A program made the translations under genes and the position numbers. A stretch of DNA of 21,339 nt from a virus, in the IMG/VR virus record IMGVR_UViG_3300030406_001509, positions 1 to 21,339 of that record. One strand, 5' to 3'. The stretch's first letter is position 1, and each line of letters begins with the position of its first letter. The notes below the pieces were generated by a model. It was not told the origin of the DNA and did no database searches. It worked only from the letters and a program-made list of their open reading frames with translations. Positions 3,879 to 11,794 of the stretch are shown one piece after another.

Positions 3879-4219
3879 CAGAAATCCCATCCTGTATGCG
3901 GAGCCTTCTTTTTGTTGTTAGCTATAGTTCTTATACATTTTCTTTCTAGCCATTCGTTATAAGCTCGTTGTATTTGTTCTTCTTCATTAGAGTAGAGTTT
4001 AGCTAACTCTTGCCACTTCTCTCTAGCTTTTTGTTGTCCTGTGTAATAGTAACCGTCTCCGAGTAGACACCTCTGCATAATTTGCCAAGCTCTTTGTTTC
4101 GTAACGTTAAATCTTTCTCCAAGTTCCTGTAGAGTACAACCATCTCCTATCCAAACCAGATACATATCTTTATACATTCTGTCTTGTTTCATCATACGTT
4201 CTTTCGATATACCTTTCAT
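3878..4219 (-). CDS. Helix-turn-helix DNA-binding protein, sigma-70 region 4-like, 113 aa
   Basis: Residues about 28-50 (CTLQELGERFNVTKQRAWQ) give a clear helix-turn-helix of the kind found in sigma-70 region 4 and small phage regulators. The core is 'LqELGerFnVTkqRawqIm'. The rest is basic and helical, with no second domain. It is too short to be a complete sigma factor. It could be a transcriptional regulator acting on phage promoters, for example the repeated GCTTTACT sites or the operator at 1014-1048; that link is speculation. The ATG at 4219 overlaps the polymerase stop (TAATG), with AAAGGAGG four to five bases upstream inside the polymerase gene's last codons. Confidence 0.78.
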   Translation of the reverse strand: MKGISKERMMKQDRMYKDMYLVWIGDGCTLQELGERFNVTKQRAWQIMQRCLLGDGYYYTGQQKAREKWQELAKLYSNEEEQIQRAYNEWLERKCIRTIANNKKKAPHTGWDF

Positions 4220-6075
4220 TAAACCTCCTTTGTATCACCCCAAGATTCGCCTACCTCTATATCTACAACTAAAGGTACAGCAAGTTGTATACAGTTTTCC
4301 ATAATCTCTGCTACTCGCTTACCTTGTTGTTCGTTTTCGATAGAGACATCTACCTCATCGTGAACCTGTAGGTGTGGAACTATTCCTTCCTTCCATAAAT
4401 CCAACATAGCTAGTTTTGTCATATCAGCAGCCGAACCTTGTATTAATCTATTTAGTGCTTTGTACGTATACGACCTACGTAAATCGTCACCGTATTTTTC
4501 TTTTGCTTCTTCTAAGGGTAACGGTGTGCTTCTTTCGTAACGTTTTTCCCAAGAATCAAACCTACACTTACGCCCCCCTAGAGTTTTTATGTACCCTCTA
4601 TCGTTAGCCACACGAGTACAATGATCTTGTAAACCTTTTATAAATGGTACTTGAGCATGATACTGAAGAAATAGCTTTTCAGCCTCTACATCATCAAGCC
4701 CTAATTCGTTAATTAGCTTTTCTTTACCCATTCCGTAACTTAGCCCTAGATTAATCACTTTAGCTTGCTTACGTGGGATATTAGCCATGTCCGCTATTAT
4801 CTGGTGGAAGTCTGCGTTTTTATCTCTATAGTCCGCTACGGCTTCTTTAGCACCCGCTAGACCTACTTTATTAGCGTAATGTACGGTTATTCTAGGTTCT
4901 TGCTGTGAGTAATCGAACACGCCCCACTGACAGTCATCTTCTGGTATAAAAACAGAACGAATTAAGTTGCCTATCTCTGGGTCACGAGCAGGGACTTGTT
5001 GTAGATTAGGATTACTGTAACTAAACCTACCGCTTACTGTACCGCCGCTATCGTTACGTAGAGGATGAGCTTCCGCATGTATTCTACCTTCGTAAGAGTG
5101 TTCTAAAATCATCTTATCTATAAACGTTGTTCTAGCTTTATTTAGTTTTCTTGCTTTTACAATAAGTTTTGGTAGATCGTGTTCATGTTTCTCTAACCAA
5201 TCTCTTTGGAAACTAGCCATACCTTTTTCAGTATGCGGGTACCATAAATTATTATTATCGAATATGTCTTTTAACGAAGCATTAGCCCAAAGGTTTACTT
5301 CTGAACCGTACTTACGTTTTATCTCTACCTGTATCTTTTGTTCTTCCTTCGATAACTGTTCGCTTATCCTGTGTGCTTTTTCTTCATCTACCCGTACCCC
5401 TTGCCATCTCATTTCTATCAGTAGAGGTAGTAGAGCACACTCTGTTTTAAATATCTTTTCTACGTCTTGATATCTTAATTCGTTTTTTAATACCCTCCAT
5501 AATTTTAAGGTAAGGGCTGCATCTTGCTCGCCATAAGGTCCAACGTATTTAGCTGGAAGTTTATACATCTCTGACTTAGGATTTATACCGTAAGCCAAAG
5601 CTGCATCCTGTAATAACGATTCATCTTTCTTTTCGTTACAGTAAGTCTCTCCCAAAGAGTCGAGAGAGAAAGAATATCTATGTTCATCTATCAAGGGAGC
5701 GGCAATGATAGTGTCCAGAACTTGTCCGTGAATATCAATGCCTTCCCTTTTTAACCACCCCACATCGTACAACGAGTTATGAAAAACCACATCACGTTTG
5801 TCCGATTTAAGAGTGTTTCTTAGCCACTTTAAAACAACATCTTCGTCTAAGTTTCCGCCGCCCTCGTGACGTATAGGAAAGTAGCCTTTCCAATTATCAG
5901 AGGCAACGCCAATGCCAACTATATGACCACGACCTGTAGCCCACCCTGGACCGCTAGTAAGCAGATGAGGGTCGTAAGTTTCTAAATCTATAGCTAACGT
6001 TTCTGTCTCCCCAAACGTAGGAAACACATCAGGTACAGACCATTTACTATCAGGTGTAAACATAGGTTGTTGCAT
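4219..6075 (-). CDS. polA: Family-A DNA polymerase with 3'-5' exonuclease, 618 aa
   Basis: This is the phage replicative polymerase, Klenow-like with no 5' nuclease domain. The exonuclease motifs look intact: AIDLETYD (Asp30, Glu32), VVFHNSLYDVGW (Asn100, Asp104) and YGEQDAA (Tyr181, Asp185). Polymerase motif A is FDYSQQEPRI (Asp388, Glu393). Motif B is RKQAKVINLGLSYG (Arg435, Lys439, Tyr447). Motif C is QVHDEVD (His572, Asp573, Glu574). The residue matching E. coli Pol I Phe762 is Leu443. The ATG at 6075 overlaps the previous stop (TAATG region) and has only an A/G-rich weak Shine-Dalgarno, so coupling is likely. It lies downstream of the nucleotide-modification cassette and may be co-transcribed with it. 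Confidence 0.97.
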   Translation of the reverse strand: MQQPMFTPDSKWSVPDVFPTFGETETLAIDLETYDPHLLTSGPGWATGRGHIVGIGVASDNWKGYFPIRHEGGGNLDEDVVLKWLRNTLKSDKRDVVFHNSLYDVGWLKREGIDIHGQVLDTIIAAPLIDEHRYSFSLDSLGETYCNEKKDESLLQDAALAYGINPKSEMYKLPAKYVGPYGEQDAALTLKLWRVLKNELRYQDVEKIFKTECALLPLLIEMRWQGVRVDEEKAHRISEQLSKEEQKIQVEIKRKYGSEVNLWANASLKDIFDNNNLWYPHTEKGMASFQRDWLEKHEHDLPKLIVKARKLNKARTTFIDKMILEHSYEGRIHAEAHPLRNDSGGTVSGRFSYSNPNLQQVPARDPEIGNLIRSVFIPEDDCQWGVFDYSQQEPRITVHYANKVGLAGAKEAVADYRDKNADFHQIIADMANIPRKQAKVINLGLSYGMGKEKLINELGLDDVEAEKLFLQYHAQVPFIKGLQDHCTRVANDRGYIKTLGGRKCRFDSWEKRYERSTPLPLEEAKEKYGDDLRRSYTYKALNRLIQGSAADMTKLAMLDLWKEGIVPHLQVHDEVDVSIENEQQGKRVAEIMENCIQLAVPLVVDIEVGESWGDTKEV

Positions 6076-6327
6076 TTATTTTTTCTTCTTAGACCTTTTT
6101 GTTTTCTTTTTCTTCGGTGCCTTACCACCAACGTAAGCTTCGTTTACGTCAGGAGTAGAAGGATCATCCGCTTTAAAAGTGCCTTTCTTAGTTCTAGCTC
6201 GAACAGGCTCAGGTGTAACTAACTCAGGATCAAACTTTTTAAGTTCTACCTTACCGTCTTCTACTGCCTGTTTTACGCTATCCTCTTTATTAGAAAATAA
6301 GTTCTTTATAAAACTAAATATACTCAT
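6076..6327 (-). CDS. Small protein with a poly-lysine tail, 83 aa
   Basis: No family is recognised. The N-terminus (MSIFSFIKNLFSNKE) is an amphipathic helix. The middle is Pro/Glu-rich and probably disordered (DPELVTPEPVRAR). The C-terminus is almost all lysine (KAPKKKKTKRSKKKK). Such a tail suggests binding to DNA or RNA, and the N-terminal helix could touch a membrane or a partner protein. The ATG at 6327 overlaps the previous stop as ATGA, with GAGGTAG upstream. It sits immediately before polA. It could be a polymerase accessory or DNA-coating protein, but this is only inferred from charge and position. Confidence 0.72.
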   Translation of the reverse strand: MSIFSFIKNLFSNKEDSVKQAVEDGKVELKKFDPELVTPEPVRARTKKGTFKADDPSTPDVNEAYVGGKAPKKKKTKRSKKKK

Positions 6328-6665
6328 TCATCTACCTCATCTTCGTATTCTTGATCTATCGCTACTGCTGATCCAGAATAGTTTGTTAAAATTTCCTGCT
6401 CGACTAATAATAGATATCTTCTTAAATCTCTAATATCGTCTAACAGACCTGCTTCGCCTTGAAATATCTGACCCGCTTCGAATACGTCCCAACCATGTTT
6501 TTCTGATTGGTGTTCTATCCTATCGAATTTACGGGCTAACATCATAAAGGCTCCAACCCCACCCCTACGTTTCCAAGAGTCACCGTAAGATGTCTCTGCT
6601 GTACGTAAAGCTGAAAGATCGTTTTGTGCCACTTCTTTCATCTTCTCCCAATTAGTATCACTCAT
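6324..6665 (-). CDS. Nmad1/MazG-like (DUF1599-type) putative nucleotide-metabolism protein, 113 aa
   Basis: The pattern YGDSWKRRGGVGAFMMLARK (about residues 27-46) followed by DRIE and a later LLDDIRDLRRYLLLVEQE is like small phage all-alpha proteins resembling the 'nucleotide modification associated domain 1' (Nmad1/DUF1599) and MazG-type NTP pyrophosphatases. Those have acidic helices that bind metal; here Glu/Asp pairs occur in DDIRDLRRY. Likely role: handling or hydrolysing a nucleotide so that the dNTP pool suits modified-DNA synthesis. It directly follows the synthase-fold gene with an ATGA overlap and has AAAGGAG upstream, which supports a nucleotide role. The family call is from memory and moderate; no activity can be shown. 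Confidence 0.6.
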   Translation of the reverse strand: MSDTNWEKMKEVAQNDLSALRTAETSYGDSWKRRGGVGAFMMLARKFDRIEHQSEKHGWDVFEAGQIFQGEAGLLDDIRDLRRYLLLVEQEILTNYSGSAVAIDQEYEDEVDE

Positions 6666-7720
6666 ATAGTCTCCTTTGGTTTATTAATTAAAGTTACTTT
6701 GCCAGACTTGTCTCTTTTCTTTATCCAATTAAAACAAGCTAACATCCAATCAACAGGTTCAATCTCTTGTACGTGTCGATATGAATTCTCTATATCGTTA
6801 TCTTTATACGCCTTGTAAGCCATTACCATAGGTTTAGCTATTTTCCGTATAGCGTATGATTTCCACTCGTAAGTCGTTCCCAACATACTATCGAAGAATA
6901 TATGTAATTCATCGTCTAAATGGGGACACGGTCTAATACTATCAGGCTCCGATGCAAAAGATCGATATTTATAATCTTTCAACTTATCGTAAGGATTTAC
7001 CCAATGCTCTCTAAAAGTCATAGGGTCTATTTTTAAATGTTTAACTCTTTTCCAAACTTCATTAGGGTAGACATGAAAGCTATCACTAATCTGTCTGTAT
7101 CTTCCTGGATGAACACCAATCTTATACGCCATGTATTCTTGTAGCATAGACATATGCACAACGTTAGCTCCATAGGCTCCCCAAAGCATATCGTTACTAC
7201 GGCAACAAACAGTCATATCTAATTCGTTATCTCTCACCTTAAAGTAAATATTAGTATTACAAGGAGCGTCTTTCGTTGGTTTACCTAAGTCATCTACAGG
7301 AGACCACATCTGTAAAACACAGCGTCTATCATCTGGATTATTACGTAGTATATTCACTATCATCGTAATCTGATTAAAATTAAAATTAGCTCTCCATCGA
7401 AAACCGTAAGCACCGTGTAGTGTTTTGCCATCGTCTGAAAAATCTTCCATAGACTTTACAAAGAAAGTTAAAGGCTCAAGATCTTCTCTACCCGCTAACA
7501 TCCACAAACCTTCTATAAAATGGAAAAATGGGTTAGCGTCTCTATCTTTAATTAAACAAACTCTCTCCCACGGTCTCTCGTAGACCGTAGTAACAGGTTC
7601 TAAAGCCTCGAAGGTAACGCCGTTTCTACTTTCTTGCACCCTAAAATTTCTTGGATCTTGAAAAAGGTCTATGCCTTTTAACAAAACTTCGTTTATATTC
7701 CTACCTAATAAGACATTCAT
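6662..7720 (-). CDS. Thymidylate synthase / pyrimidine hydroxymethylase-fold enzyme, 352 aa
   Basis: Motifs of the thymidylate synthase superfamily are visible: the phosphate-binding arginine pair (DDRRCVLQ, Arg132-133), catalytic Cys154 in APCNTN, RSND (174-177), Asn186 in GAYGANVV, and the ribose-binding His216-x-Tyr218 in SFHVYPN. Asn186 aligns with E. coli Asn177, which selects dUMP; dCMP hydroxymethylases have Asp there. The residue after the catalytic Cys is Asn rather than the usual His. The long C-terminus (250-352) lacks a normal thymidylate synthase tail. The product could be dTMP, or 5-hydroxymethyl-dUMP for modified DNA. I favour the latter because of the adjacent modification-family gene (7919-8830). 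The start is supported by AGGAG and an ATGA overlap. Confidence 0.88.
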   Translation of the reverse strand: MNVLLGRNINEVLLKGIDLFQDPRNFRVQESRNGVTFEALEPVTTVYERPWERVCLIKDRDANPFFHFIEGLWMLAGREDLEPLTFFVKSMEDFSDDGKTLHGAYGFRWRANFNFNQITMIVNILRNNPDDRRCVLQMWSPVDDLGKPTKDAPCNTNIYFKVRDNELDMTVCCRSNDMLWGAYGANVVHMSMLQEYMAYKIGVHPGRYRQISDSFHVYPNEVWKRVKHLKIDPMTFREHWVNPYDKLKDYKYRSFASEPDSIRPCPHLDDELHIFFDSMLGTTYEWKSYAIRKIAKPMVMAYKAYKDNDIENSYRHVQEIEPVDWMLACFNWIKKRDKSGKVTLINKPKETI

Positions 7721-7935
7721 AACAGCTCCTGATGTCCGCTTACTATCTCTGTAATTAAATTATGTATGTCGCTTGTTGAAAGCTGTGGTAATTTCTTCTT
7801 AATAAAACCTACAGCCATTTCTTGATCAGCCGCCACCTTTAAGTAGAACGCTACTTCTAAAAACTGTGTGTAATAGATATCTACTAAATCACCGTATTGA
7901 TCTATCAAGTCTATAAATTCATCCTCTAATGTCAT
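7717..7935 (-). CDS. Hypothetical acidic helical protein, 72 aa
   Basis: No family is recognised. The protein is acidic and looks wholly helical: EDEFIDLIDQYGDLVDIYY, then EVAFYLKVAADQEMAVGFIKKKL, then an Asp/His-containing tail. It overlaps its upstream neighbour by 17 bases and its downstream neighbour by 4 (ATGA), so it lies between two predicted base-modification enzymes. Its Shine-Dalgarno (GGAGAAAG) is somewhat distant from the ATG at 7935. It might be a small subunit or adaptor of the cassette, but this rests only on position. Confidence 0.68.
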   Translation of the reverse strand: MTLEDEFIDLIDQYGDLVDIYYTQFLEVAFYLKVAADQEMAVGFIKKKLPQLSTSDIHNLITEIVSGHQELL

Positions 7936-8830
7936 AATTACTTTCTCCGTTTGATCCGCAATCTTCTATAATAGGAAGATCGCTAGGTTTAAAAATTGAT
8001 CTTGTTCTGCCTTCGCCTTTATATATTCGTGAGTATTTATCAAACTCACATAAACCACCCTCTATCTCTCGTAACTCAAACTCGTTAGAAGAACGAGCTA
8101 TCAAAGGTGATAGATTACCCTCGCATAAAGAATAGAGTTCTACCATCTCACCGCACCAATCGTGAGTACGTCTAGTGTATTTTAAATCTCTACCTGTTAG
8201 CCTATTCAGTCCTCGCATGGCTCCTGGTCCCGCATTAGCCCAAGTATAGATATCGTTAGCTTGATTAAGAATGCAAGTATGTCTAAGATCGGTAACTACT
8301 TCATACGCCATGAACGGTCCCATGTAAGGATAAGCTCGTATAATCTTCCAAAAAGTTTCTAGATTACAGCCCTTAGATTGTTCTATAAGGTATTCTCTAT
8401 CGTTCCACATATGGCTAATACACTCAGCGACTCCAGATACTTTATCCATGCCGTTAGGTGTTTTTATAATGTAAGCACCCGTGATCCACTGATCTTGCTC
8501 CTTAATTAAATCGATAGCTTTCTGCCTATCCCAATTAAATAACAGATCGTTTTCTATCAAAGTTCTACCTGTATCTATTAGATTAAACCATCTAAAAATA
8601 ACCGTAGCCATAAAAACATCGGGATCATCTTTTAGAGGTTCTCTTATGTGTCGTCTAAACCAACGAGTAGTTCTATCGTCCTCTCTAAAAACCTGACAGA
8701 ATTTATAATTATTAAATATTGGATCTTTCGAGTACGGTGGAGTCTCATCCGTCTGTTCTTTAACATAACGGATGGACTCCCGCTCATTTATCCAATAGAA
8801 ATATCTATCAAGTTCTTCTTGAATGAACAT
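7919..8830 (-). CDS. 5-hmdU DNA kinase helical-domain / alpha-glutamyl-putrescinyl-thymine pyrophosphorylase family protein, 303 aa
   Basis: I recognise the family by several blocks in order: WINERESI (13-20), DPIFNNYKFC then REDDRTTRW (36-57), the helix-hairpin-helix-like YPYMGPFMAYEVVTDL (167-182), WANAGPGAMRGLNRLTG (197-213) and REIEGGLCEFDKYSR (254-268). These mark the helical domain predicted by Iyer and colleagues (2013) to act in thymine hypermodification, with a DNA-glycosylase-like fold. Members include the helical part of 5-hydroxymethyl-dU DNA kinases and amino acid:DNA transferases. No Walker A/B kinase motif is present, so this copy has only the helical domain. It likely acts on 5-hmdU in phage DNA, installing or exchanging a group. 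The ATG overlaps the methyltransferase stop by one base (TAATG). Confidence 0.82.
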   Translation of the reverse strand: MFIQEELDRYFYWINERESIRYVKEQTDETPPYSKDPIFNNYKFCQVFREDDRTTRWFRRHIREPLKDDPDVFMATVIFRWFNLIDTGRTLIENDLLFNWDRQKAIDLIKEQDQWITGAYIIKTPNGMDKVSGVAECISHMWNDREYLIEQSKGCNLETFWKIIRAYPYMGPFMAYEVVTDLRHTCILNQANDIYTWANAGPGAMRGLNRLTGRDLKYTRRTHDWCGEMVELYSLCEGNLSPLIARSSNEFELREIEGGLCEFDKYSRIYKGEGRTRSIFKPSDLPIIEDCGSNGESNYDIRG

Positions 8831-9672
8831 TACTTCTTAGTTAATCTCCAAGCACAGTTATTAGCTCGTTCAGGATAAAACATAGCCGCAACCATTCTAA
8901 AAAATTGTCTACCGAAACGTTCCTCTAAATAGACCATCATATCATCCGTCCACCATCTTGCGTCAGGATCCGCCTGTACTTTCTTAAAATTAGGTATTTG
9001 TATAAACGTACCTGTAACCGCCTGCACATGAAAGTTTCTTTCTAGTTCTTGTTTAAGTTCTTGAAAACCCCACTCATAAACATGATCTTCAGGCAACTTA
9101 TCGTTAGAGCCATCATGATTAGGTGTAGACACATAAGCTATACCTGTAGGTCGCATAACACGAGCTGCCTCGTCTAGCCATGGGGGGACAAACTCTCTAC
9201 CCATATGTTCAATAACTTCCGTAGACCAAAAGAAATCTATACTTTCATCAGGTAAATCAAGTTTAGGATTAACCGTCAAGTCTTGTATACGTATCTCGCC
9301 GTTGAAGTTTTTAAACCACGTAGATTCTTCTAACCTACCCCCTGCATTAGACCAAAATGGGTTTTCTAACTCACACGCTGGATCGATATCGTAGCCGTAA
9401 TAAGATCGGATAATATCGGACTTTTTAACTACGTATGCCTTATATAAACAACGTAAAGCCCAACACTCTCCACAACCTATTTCTAAAGTGTCTAAGGGTC
9501 TCCCTAACGCTTTTGCATGTTCTATGCACAAACTAGCTATCTTATCGAAACGACTCATATGAGCTAACTCATCGGGTCTCCAATTACCTAGAACTCCAGC
9601 ACTAGCTAAATCCATTCTAGTATTTTTACTGTCATTTTCATTAACAGTAAGTTTTCTTCTTATAGATGACAT
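8830..9672 (-). CDS. Class I SAM-dependent methyltransferase, 280 aa
   Basis: A Rossmann-fold methyltransferase is clear: motif I LEIGCGE (63-69), the acidic end of strand 2 at YDID (94-97), an Asp at IQDL (129-132), FFWSTEVIEHM (147-157) and a RPTGIAYVSTPN strand (174-185). The order matches the Methyltransf_11/UbiE-like group, not DNA N6-adenine (no NPPY) or 5-cytosine (no Pro-Cys) enzymes. The substrate could be a small group on a modified base, a nucleotide or a surface molecule. It is the first gene of the cassette, directly under promoter P4, with a strong AGAAAGGAG upstream. Its neighbour at 7919-8830 suggests a role in tailoring modified DNA; this is inference. Confidence 0.88.
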   Translation of the reverse strand: MSSIRRKLTVNENDSKNTRMDLASAGVLGNWRPDELAHMSRFDKIASLCIEHAKALGRPLDTLEIGCGECWALRCLYKAYVVKKSDIIRSYYGYDIDPACELENPFWSNAGGRLEESTWFKNFNGEIRIQDLTVNPKLDLPDESIDFFWSTEVIEHMGREFVPPWLDEAARVMRPTGIAYVSTPNHDGSNDKLPEDHVYEWGFQELKQELERNFHVQAVTGTFIQIPNFKKVQADPDARWWTDDMMVYLEERFGRQFFRMVAAMFYPERANNCAWRLTKK

Positions 9673-9698
9673 ATTTTCTCCTTTCTAAAAGTTAAACC

Positions 9699-9728
9699 AT
9701 TTTACTTTATTAATAGTTACAAAGTAAA
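9699..9728 (-). promoter_or_regulatory. Leftward promoter P4 (GCTTTACT family) before the modification cassette
   Basis: On the minus strand TTTACT (9728-9723, within GTGCTTTACTTT) is followed after 18 bases by TAAAAT (9704-9699). The -35 motif overlaps the last codons of the UvrD-type gene (Cys-Phe-Thr-Leu-stop). Transcription would start near 9692 and give a short leader to the methyltransferase gene, making the cassette its own unit. Confidence 0.7.
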
Positions 9729-11210
9729 GCACTTCGTGGACTGCGGTTCTATCAAATAAAGATTCTGTTTTGTTCTTGTTAAACCTACGTAAAACACCCT
9801 GTTTTCATCGTCAGGGTTTTTCTGATAATTTTTATAAACTCTACTTGTTATATCGGTTATTAATACGACATTGGTTGCTTCCCCACCTTTTGCAGCATGT
9901 ATCGTTGATAAACGTATACGTGGTTCTTTAGTAATCTTTTCGCCTCTACGTAACATAGCTCTTATGTAACTAATCTCTTTCGGACTAATCAATGTAAAAA
10001 CATCATACCAATTACCTTGTGGTAAATCAGGGAAGTCAGCTTTTAATTCTACGTAATCCTTAGTCTTAAAATCTAAATTATCTATCTTCTTATAGTTCTG
10101 TACCTTTACGTACTTAAATAAATCAACACAATCTGCTAAAGCTATACGACCACCCTTCATCAAAGATTGCCAACTTAATACTGCTTTTACTTTCTTCTCT
10201 GATATACTCGGTCTACCTTTTACCTCAAAAAACCACCCCTCGTTCCTACAGTATTCATCTACTTCTTCTAATAAATAATTTGTTCTAGCTAAAACAAGCC
10301 AATCACCCTCGTCCATATTTACTAATGATATGTTAGGTTCCCAACGTACCATGCCTTGTTCTTTTCTAGGCTCCCATACTTTATGTACTCTTGATCTAAC
10401 TTGACCAATACACTTCGTTGCTATCCCGTGTACAGAGGCAGGCACTCTGTGAGATTGTTTTAACACCATGGCGTCTTTAGAATTACTAATCAGGTATTCG
10501 ACATCAGCTCCCGCCCACTTATAAATAGCTTGATCGTCATCACCCGCTACGTAAATCTTCTTAGCCTTCTCTGCCATCTTCCGCACTACAGCCCACTGTA
10601 ACGGTGATAAGTCTTGTGCCTCGTCTACAAACATAACATCTAAAAAAGGTACAGCACCTTCTTCTAAAAACATTTGTAACATATCTGTATAATCAACTAA
10701 CAATCTATCTTTCTTAAATAACTCTAAACCTCTAGCAAAACGTTCTAATTCAAACCAACCCACAGCATCATCAACTTCGTGCCACTGTTCTGATAACGGT
10801 ATGTTCTTCATACGAGCTAAATTTTCTATAAACGCTAATCTATCATCATGTGTCATAGCAAACAAATGACCGTCTTCTGATGTAGTTCTACCTGTAAGAC
10901 GTATGTTTAGTTTTTCATTTAAATCTAAGATATTAGATTTATTCATCACGTTTTCTTTAGATAATCCCAACTGTCTAAAAGCTAAAGAGTGTAGTGTTCG
11001 AAAGAAAGGGAGATCACGGTTCGATATGGAAAACCTATTGATCGCCCTCTCTTTCCCCTCATTAACAGCTTTCTTAGTGAAGGTAAAAAATCCTATCTTC
11101 TCTGGCTCGGTTCCTGTTTCTAACTCATCCTCTATTAAACCTAATAAAGTGCTAGTCTTTCCTGTACCAGGAGGTCCAAGTATCATCTGTGTATGGCTAG
11201 GTAAAGTCAT
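9717..11210 (-). CDS. UvrD/Rep-type superfamily 1A DNA helicase, 497 aa
   Basis: All main SF1A motifs are visible: Walker A GPPGTGKT (12-19), motif Ia FTFTKKAV, Walker B VDEAQD (195-200), motif III GDDDQAIYKW (223-232), motif IV-like LKQSHRVP, motif V STIHAAKGGE (435-444) and motif VI YVGLTRTK (474-481). At 497 residues it is shorter than cellular UvrD, with reduced 1B/2B insertions, as in many phage helicases. It unwinds DNA with 3'-5' polarity in known relatives, probably for replication or recombination. The ATG at 11210 overlaps the previous stop (ATGA) with a weak Shine-Dalgarno. Its last codons contain the -35 part of promoter P4. Confidence 0.95.
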   Translation of the reverse strand: MTLPSHTQMILGPPGTGKTSTLLGLIEDELETGTEPEKIGFFTFTKKAVNEGKERAINRFSISNRDLPFFRTLHSLAFRQLGLSKENVMNKSNILDLNEKLNIRLTGRTTSEDGHLFAMTHDDRLAFIENLARMKNIPLSEQWHEVDDAVGWFELERFARGLELFKKDRLLVDYTDMLQMFLEEGAVPFLDVMFVDEAQDLSPLQWAVVRKMAEKAKKIYVAGDDDQAIYKWAGADVEYLISNSKDAMVLKQSHRVPASVHGIATKCIGQVRSRVHKVWEPRKEQGMVRWEPNISLVNMDEGDWLVLARTNYLLEEVDEYCRNEGWFFEVKGRPSISEKKVKAVLSWQSLMKGGRIALADCVDLFKYVKVQNYKKIDNLDFKTKDYVELKADFPDLPQGNWYDVFTLISPKEISYIRAMLRRGEKITKEPRIRLSTIHAAKGGEATNVVLITDITSRVYKNYQKNPDDENRVFYVGLTRTKQNLYLIEPQSTKCFTL

Positions 11211-11794
11211 AAGCCTGACCTAAAAGTCATATTGATTCTATCGCCTAGCGGTCCCATAACTTCAGGAACTGCGTGTGTACTATTCATTTGTGAGTACCCA
11301 TCAAATAACATAATATCGCCGTGTTCCATAATGTAAGATTCTTTTTTAACTATCTCTTTATGTTCAATATTTATATCACTCGTATTACAGTTATCTTTTA
11401 TCTGTCCGCTATACTCAATCCACTCAAAAACTCTAGGTGATCCGAAAGAAGCAGATAAAACAATATCATCGTATTCAGGAACTGTATCAGAATGATGGGG
11501 TATACCCTCACCCATGTGAGAATAATAACCACACAAACAAAAAGTAAATCTAACTTTTTTACCTAATACTTGTTCCGCTACTCGTTCTGCTGCTGCTTTT
11601 ATAAACGGCATAAAGATCACAGAATCCCACCGCTCAGGGTTCATATGCTTTCCTGCATAGTTAAAAGACCCATCACCAAAACCCCTAGTTGGTCTGCCTT
11701 TAACTACCTTTCCTTCATACACCCTTGTTTGCGGTGGGTTCCACTTCTCGAAAAATGGATTAAACATTAACGCTTCTTTTATGAACTCTTTCAT
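11207..11794 (-). CDS. AlkB-like 2-oxoglutarate/Fe(II) dioxygenase, 195 aa
   Basis: The iron-binding triad and 2-oxoglutarate site of AlkB-type enzymes are visible: H-x-D at His101-Ser-Asp103 (PHHSDTVPEYDD), distal His174 (STHAVPEV), and RINMTFR (Arg186 to Arg192), which matches the R-x-N-x-T-F-R of E. coli AlkB. Characterised AlkB proteins remove methyl groups oxidatively from N1-methyladenine and N3-methylcytosine. Between core strands, residues 130-156 form an extra loop. Possible roles are alkylation repair of phage DNA or hydroxylation of a base as part of modification. The ATG at 11794 overlaps the primase stop (ATGA), with no good Shine-Dalgarno, so coupling is likely. Confidence 0.88.
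   Translation of the reverse strand: MKEFIKEALMFNPFFEKWNPPQTRVYEGKVVKGRPTRGFGDGSFNYAGKHMNPERWDSVIFMPFIKAAAERVAEQVLGKKVRFTFCLCGYYSHMGEGIPHHSDTVPEYDDIVLSASFGSPRVFEWIEYSGQIKDNCNTSDINIEHKEIVKKESYIMEHGDIMLFDGYSQMNSTHAVPEVMGPLGDRINMTFRSGL

Follow-up and report, generated by a model that had tools for sequence, protein, structure and literature searches.

A candidate thymine-modification operon in a marine phage genome fragment with a methyltransferase in the position of the 5-hydroxymethyldeoxyuridine kinase

Gene content and conservation of the operon

The window analyzed here is a 21,339-base virus record (IMG/VR IMGVR_UViG_3300030406_001509; GC content, 36.8%) that had no DNA-level match in a whole-window megablast search of a phage collection. 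A first-pass annotation had proposed a thymine hypermodification cassette made up of five overlapping leftward genes, and all five open reading frames (ORFs) lie on the minus strand at the places given, each overlapping or abutting the next, in an order conserved in relatives. The gene run continues beyond the end assigned to it, via a gene for an 83-amino-acid (aa) protein, into PolA. At the head of the run is a methyltransferase, MT280, followed by HEL, a protein of the HMUDK_hel family, and by an enzyme with a thymidylate synthase (TS) fold. The features, from upstream to downstream, are as follows.

8830 to 9672, minus strand: MT280, 280 aa, class I S-adenosylmethionine (SAM)-dependent methyltransferase (Pfam Methyltransf_23/11); proposed O-methyltransferase of 5-hydroxymethyl-2'-deoxyuridine (5hmdU)
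7919 to 8830, minus strand: HEL, 303 aa, HMUDK_hel (5-hmdU DNA kinase helical domain; aGPT-PPlase1; PF18723); proposed base-presenting DNA-binding partner
7717 to 7935, minus strand: s72, 72 aa, small protein between HEL and the hydroxymethylase (55 of about 80 loci, window included)
6662 to 7720, minus strand: predicted dUMP 5-hydroxymethylase, 352 aa, thymidylate synthase fold (PF00303 Thymidylat_synt; phrog_5131, E = 9e-107)
6324 to 6665, minus strand: 113-aa protein, conserved core gene with a YGDSWKRRGGVGAFMMLARKFDRIE block (79 loci)
6076 to 6327, minus strand: 83-aa lysine-rich small protein of the same gene run (60 loci)
4219 to 6075, minus strand: PolA, family A DNA polymerase, end of the gene run (79 loci, order kept)

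With HEL as the query, 80 related IMG/VR loci were collected. The order of MT280, HEL, the TS-like gene, and the 113-aa gene was kept in 78 to 80 of the 80, and these ORFs are therefore genes rather than chance reading frames. The s72 gene, whose product had no match in family searches, was present in about two-thirds of the related loci. Across the approximately 80 loci, both the order and the direction of MT280-HEL-(s72)-TS-113aa-(83aa)-PolA were nearly constant wherever the locus was long enough to show them. HEL was present in all of the 80 best MT280 loci, and in 26 relatives MT280 was 60 to 85% identical to the window copy.

Evidence for 5-hydroxymethyldeoxyuridine

The thymidylate synthase fold assigned in the first pass was recovered by PF00303, and the active site points to a dUMP hydroxymethylase. 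The nearest solved relative by sequence is MilA, a CMP hydroxymethylase. Residues C154 and N186 and the motifs PCN and WGAYGAN are common to the window enzyme, SPO1-type gp29, M6, and PaMx11, whereas thymidylate synthase controls carry PCH or PCV and LGLPFN-type loops. Two positions, 147 and 177, have been reported as diagnostic, the latter being Asn in uracil-type and Asp in cytosine-type enzymes (PMC8670742); the window enzyme has the catalytic Cys, the uracil-type Asn at Escherichia coli position 177, and Asn replacing His147. Because the PCN and WG..GAN signature is shared with SPO1-type gp29, M6, and PaMx11, we predict from sequence, with high confidence, that this enzyme is a dUMP hydroxymethylase.

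HEL matched PF18723 at 138 bits (cut-off, 25; E = 5.2e-40) over profile positions 4 to 276 of 281, and it is homologous along its full length to M6 gp55 and PaMx11 gp50 (37 to 40% identity). This profile search had been named as the check on assigning the 303-residue protein to the 5-hmdU-kinase-helical/pyrophosphorylase family. It upheld the helical-domain part of the label; "pyrophosphorylase" is an old name, since the family adjoins the 5hmdU kinase in M6-like phages. A Protein Data Bank sequence search with HEL gave no useful match. An AlphaFold2 model (predicted local distance difference test score [pLDDT], 94) had helix-hairpin-helix DNA glycosylases and PaMx11 gp46 as its top solved folds. 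These matches are weak, with E values of 0.06 or worse, so the model gives a hint, not proof, of a base-flipping protein. Distant HMUDK_hel homologs that lack the phage partner genes also occur in genomes of archaea and candidate phyla (L376, L379, L380, L382, L383, L385, L386, and other genome_contigs loci).

Taken together, the HMUDK_hel match and the hydroxymethylase signature give good support to the earlier proposal that thymine is replaced or decorated in this phage, via 5hmdU, and formation of 5hmdU and its incorporation into phage DNA are very likely.

A methyltransferase occupies the kinase position

Our account of the M6- and PaMx11-type pathways relies on papers that cite the original work, on GenBank annotation, and on the names of Pfam families. 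In M6, PaMx11, and Pam3, the 5hmdU kinase is directly upstream of HMUDK_hel; in M6 and PaMx11 this P-loop kinase (M6 gp54 is PF18748, 5-hmdU DNA kinase) precedes HEL, after which come the hydroxymethylase and PolA. In the window phage and its marine relatives, the slot upstream of HEL holds MT280. Phages, IMG/VR, and GTDB genomes supplied 258 distinct HEL proteins for a classification of neighbors: MT280 was the partner of 119, a kinase of 43, and a glycosyltransferase of 29, and two types never occurred together (0/258). The remaining 67 were mostly distant cellular homologs or came from cut contigs. The glycosyltransferases are TAGT or GT-B proteins, some with a radical-SAM protein or an FkbM methyltransferase.

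The closest marine sisters share the same Prim-UvrD...TS-113aa-PolA backbone and have a glycosyltransferase in the MT280 slot, and in five such sisters (G029 to G033) MT280 was absent from the entire record. The HEL tree shows at least nine changes of partner type and a single gain of MT280, which lies inside glycosyltransferase and kinase lineages.

Enzymes of known pathways were sought in 28 records of the MT280 clade (46 to 84 kb). None contained an HMUDK kinase, which was also not found in the window neighborhood, the amino acid:DNA transferase ADDT (PF18724), a TAGT match above cut-off, or Glycos_transf_1. A phmmer search with 21 queries of known decorating enzymes gave no match in six near-full records. 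The first-pass annotation had noted a gene combination different from characterized pathways; this was correct. That annotation anticipated 5hmdU and the odd gene set but missed both the methyltransferase in the kinase position and the lack of kinase and ADDT.

The SAM methyltransferase named in the first pass is class I by Pfam, with Methyltransf_11/23/25-type matches only. No DNA-methyltransferase Pfam domain (N6/N4 or C5) was found in MT280, as would mark a classical DNA base methyltransferase. The nearest solved folds to its AlphaFold2 model (pLDDT, 82) are the small-molecule methyltransferases TleD, AtmM, and RebM. HEL-MT280 fusion proteins, sought as direct proof of partnership, were absent among 434 HEL and 284 methyltransferase ORFs. 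Some M6-type HEL ORFs seem to exceed 400 aa; these were rejected as fusions, their open 5' extensions overlapping the kinase gene.

Other arrangements were seen around HMUDK_hel. In L214, L215, L219, L238, L245, L357, and L374 (about 5974 to 10260), it is accompanied by a 445-aa GT-B glycosyltransferase and in some by an FkbM methyltransferase; such marine phages probably attach a sugar to 5hmdU, and that sugar may be methylated. In L194, L197, L199 (HEL-TS interval), L266, L358, and L275, the gene after HEL encodes a glycosyltransferase-like protein whose Pfam match is weak or absent, and a radical-SAM/SPASM protein precedes the hydroxymethylase. In Acinetobacter phage nACB2 (L086, 6101 to 8906), another possible variant, the neighbors of HMUDK_hel are a Macro-domain protein and a 350-aa protein that matches AAA weakly, and an ADDT-like gene is also present.

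Homologs of the methyltransferase beside cytosine-type hydroxymethylases

Among 50,697 phage records, MT280 homologs were found in only four distinct phages: AXL3, PW916, MW202621, and MW202510 (E = 4e-18 to 7e-22 for the A2 profile against these four proteins). All four homologs adjoin a pyrimidine hydroxymethylase, together with MazG and dCMP deaminase and, in most, a dNMP-kinase-like protein. The hydroxymethylases of these phages have PCT and PYDVF, a cytosine-type site. A further 22 AXL3-type loci came from IMG/VR, with the hydroxymethylase beside the methyltransferase in all 21 that were long enough to show it, and HEL was absent from the operon in these loci. Representative operons are in L465 (5851 to 9885), L467 to L488, L461 (7372 to 10614), and L464 (4854 to 8749).

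Because its members adjoin cytosine-type hydroxymethylases in AXL3-type phages, the MT280 family is, as judged by gene neighborhood, associated with hydroxymethylated pyrimidines of both kinds. The AXL3-type operons of cultured and uncultured phages are a candidate source of a modified cytosine. Of 37 restriction enzymes tried on DNA of the cultured Stenotrophomonas phage AXL3, only two cut it, each recognizing a site made up of A/T alone, from which the authors concluded that there may be altered G/C bases (PMC7504290).

Proposed pathway and alternatives

We propose a three-step pathway. In the first and strongly supported step, the TS-like enzyme would hydroxymethylate dUMP to 5hmdUMP, which cellular kinases would convert to 5hmdUTP. 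In the second, the adjacent PolA would insert 5hmdUTP in place of T, with the 113-aa protein probably helping by shaping the nucleotide pool. After replication, HMUDK_hel would present 5hmdU in DNA to MT280, which would methylate the 5-hydroxymethyl moiety with SAM as donor, giving 5-methoxymethyl-deoxyuridine. We rate this last step, with HEL presenting the base, at about an even chance or better, and consider the operon as a whole, ending in 5hmdU O-methylated by MT280, a little better than an even bet. In the M6/PaMx11 branch, the equivalent initial reaction at this hydroxyl falls to the P-loop kinase, and in the sister marine phages it probably falls to a glycosyltransferase; the exchange of kinase for methyltransferase makes chemical sense because both would act on this hydroxyl. 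HMUDK_hel, the hydroxymethylase, and PolA would then form a constant chassis, and the transferase would be exchangeable. The likely benefit is that a capped base would evade 5hmdU-attacking enzymes as well as ordinary restriction enzymes.

A broader proposal is tentative, and we place it slightly short of even: that the DNA of the clade holds 5-methoxymethyl-2'-deoxyuridine, the product of a 5hmdU O-methyltransferase guided by HMUDK_hel, that HMUDK_hel acts generally as the targeting subunit of exchangeable transferases (kinase, glycosyltransferase, or methyltransferase), and that AXL3-type phages use a related enzyme for the cytosine counterpart.

Several points weigh against O-methylation of HEL-presented 5hmdU. 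The chemistry of the clade is inferred, unlike the well-supported operon itself, and the substrate and position of MT280 are deduced from gene neighborhood. MT280 has a single origin, and its pairing with HEL therefore counts as one event, preserved by descent. The window is a 21-kb fragment, and the absences rest on relatives. The glycosylase-like fold match of the HEL model is weak (best E value, 0.06). Finally, the AXL3-type homolog works without HEL, beside a cytosine-type hydroxymethylase; HEL is thus not its partner everywhere, and nucleotide-level methylation keeps some probability.

The alternative that survives best, although unlikely, is that the phage has plain 5hmdU, as in SPO1/SP8, and that MT280 methylates RNA, protein, or a nucleotide-pool intermediate and is merely co-operonic. 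The hydroxymethylase signature alone would suffice for 5hmdU, and class I methyltransferases like MT280 have very varied substrates. However, MT280 holds the kinase/glycosyltransferase position beside HEL to the exclusion of both, its homologs adjoin hydroxymethylases in unrelated phages, and plain 5hmdU leaves HEL without an obvious role.

Somewhat less likely still, MT280 could act late, forming a methyl ester or ether after 5hmdU is oxidized by an AlkB-like 2-oxoglutarate (2OG) oxygenase or decorated by the product of another ORF. An AlkB-like 2OG-Fe(II) oxygenase is encoded two genes upstream (11207 to 11794) and was detected in 64 loci, and sister phages pair a glycosyltransferase with an FkbM-type methyltransferase. 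Yet many MT280 loci lack the oxygenase and others have it elsewhere, and near-full relatives have no glycosyltransferase, kinase, or ADDT homolog. In some relatives (L059 and L062), the oxygenase gene is on the opposite strand, beside SNF2.

Methylation of free 5hmdUMP or another nucleotide, with PolA incorporating the methylated base and HEL acting elsewhere, is improbable. AXL3-type operons, which combine an MT280 homolog, MazG, a dNMP kinase, and a hydroxymethylase with no HEL, fit such a scheme, but HEL is kept with MT280 in every complete locus of the clade, and M6-like phages pair it with the 5hmdU DNA kinase. An ordinary dTMP synthesis cassette in a phage without a modified base can be dismissed as highly improbable: the gene is annotated as thymidylate synthase in related phages, but its active site has the features of hydroxymethylases rather than thymidylate synthases, and HMUDK_hel accompanies modification pathways.

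The 113-aa protein, PolA, and the upstream region

The 113-aa protein, with its striking conserved block YGDSWKRRGGVGAFMMLARKFDRIE, had been labeled Nmad1/MazG-like, a label that could not be confirmed: no Pfam match was found across 20 members, and PF07659/DUF1599, which we take to be Nmad1, gave nothing up to E = 10. A homologous stretch is present in Pam3_54, annotated "nucleotide modification." For PolA, the top NCBIfam match was to DpoZ, an aminoadenine-incorporating polymerase (365 bits, under the cut-off of 500); PolI-family NCBIfam matches also fell below cut-off, and the DpoZ match probably reflects relatedness only.

Upstream of MT280 is one further feature.

9701 to 9728, minus strand: inverted repeat TTTACTTT-N12-AAAGTAAA, unique in the window and conserved in relatives

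A promoter-like TTTACT-18-TAAAAT sequence at 9728 to 9699 (minus strand), 27 bases upstream of the MT280 start codon, overlaps this repeat. The first-pass annotation had given the cassette its own promoter; the site is there, but a plain consensus scan found fewer promoter sites in the window than in shuffled sequence (20 versus 33), at or below chance. The repeat is unique in the window with 0 expected, occurs 55 times within 120 nucleotides after the UvrD stop codon in MT280 loci, and is conserved in alignments of the stretch that separates UvrD from the methyltransferase gene in relatives. Because the site sits in this unique, conserved repeat, a dedicated promoter, perhaps with an operator, is likely.

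Implications and comparison with known systems

A methyl-capped 5hmdU in phage DNA, where relatives cap with phosphate, an amino acid, or a sugar, would be a base not yet described in nature. Our literature search, which left most subscription papers outside its reach, found no account of a methoxymethyl base in phage DNA and no report of a methyltransferase version of this cassette. If the proposal is true, the set of natural DNA bases gains an O-methylated hydroxymethylpyrimidine, and phages hypermodify thymine in a modular way, with one chassis and an exchangeable capping enzyme. With the cassette in well over 100 marine phage contigs, a 5-methoxymethyl base could be common in the ocean. 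The proposal also gives HMUDK_hel a testable role and makes cultured AXL3 the place to seek a cytosine version.

SPO1-type phages keep bare 5hmdU. The window phage shares the dUMP hydroxymethylase active-site signature with SPO1/SP8 but has HEL and MT280 on top. The AXL3 gp27-gp31 operon likewise places a homologous methyltransferase beside a pyrimidine hydroxymethylase, in a phage whose virion DNA resists restriction, but has its own PCT/PYDVF cytosine-type site, its own MazG and dNMP kinase, and no HMUDK_hel. Brevibacterium phage LuckyBarnes and sisters (L194, L197, L199, L214, L357, and L374) share the HMUDK_hel and hydroxymethylase core, with TAGT or GT-B glycosyltransferases, some plus a radical-SAM protein or FkbM methyltransferase, replacing MT280. 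In HTVC023P-type pelagiphages, TS and aG/PT-PPlase1 partner genes beside PolA have been published as probable thymidine hypermodification (PMC9599517). Two of the cassette's genes thus stand beside PolA in those marine phages too, while the main text of that paper mentions no methyltransferase, transferase exchange, or kinase absence. M6 (5-NedU) and PaMx11 (N-alpha-GlyT/5-NmdU type) have the dUMP hydroxymethylase, HMUDK_hel, and PolA in the same gene order as the window clade, which differs in having a methyltransferase instead of their HMUDK kinase, ADDT, and pyridoxal phosphate, radical-SAM, or flavin adenine dinucleotide enzymes.

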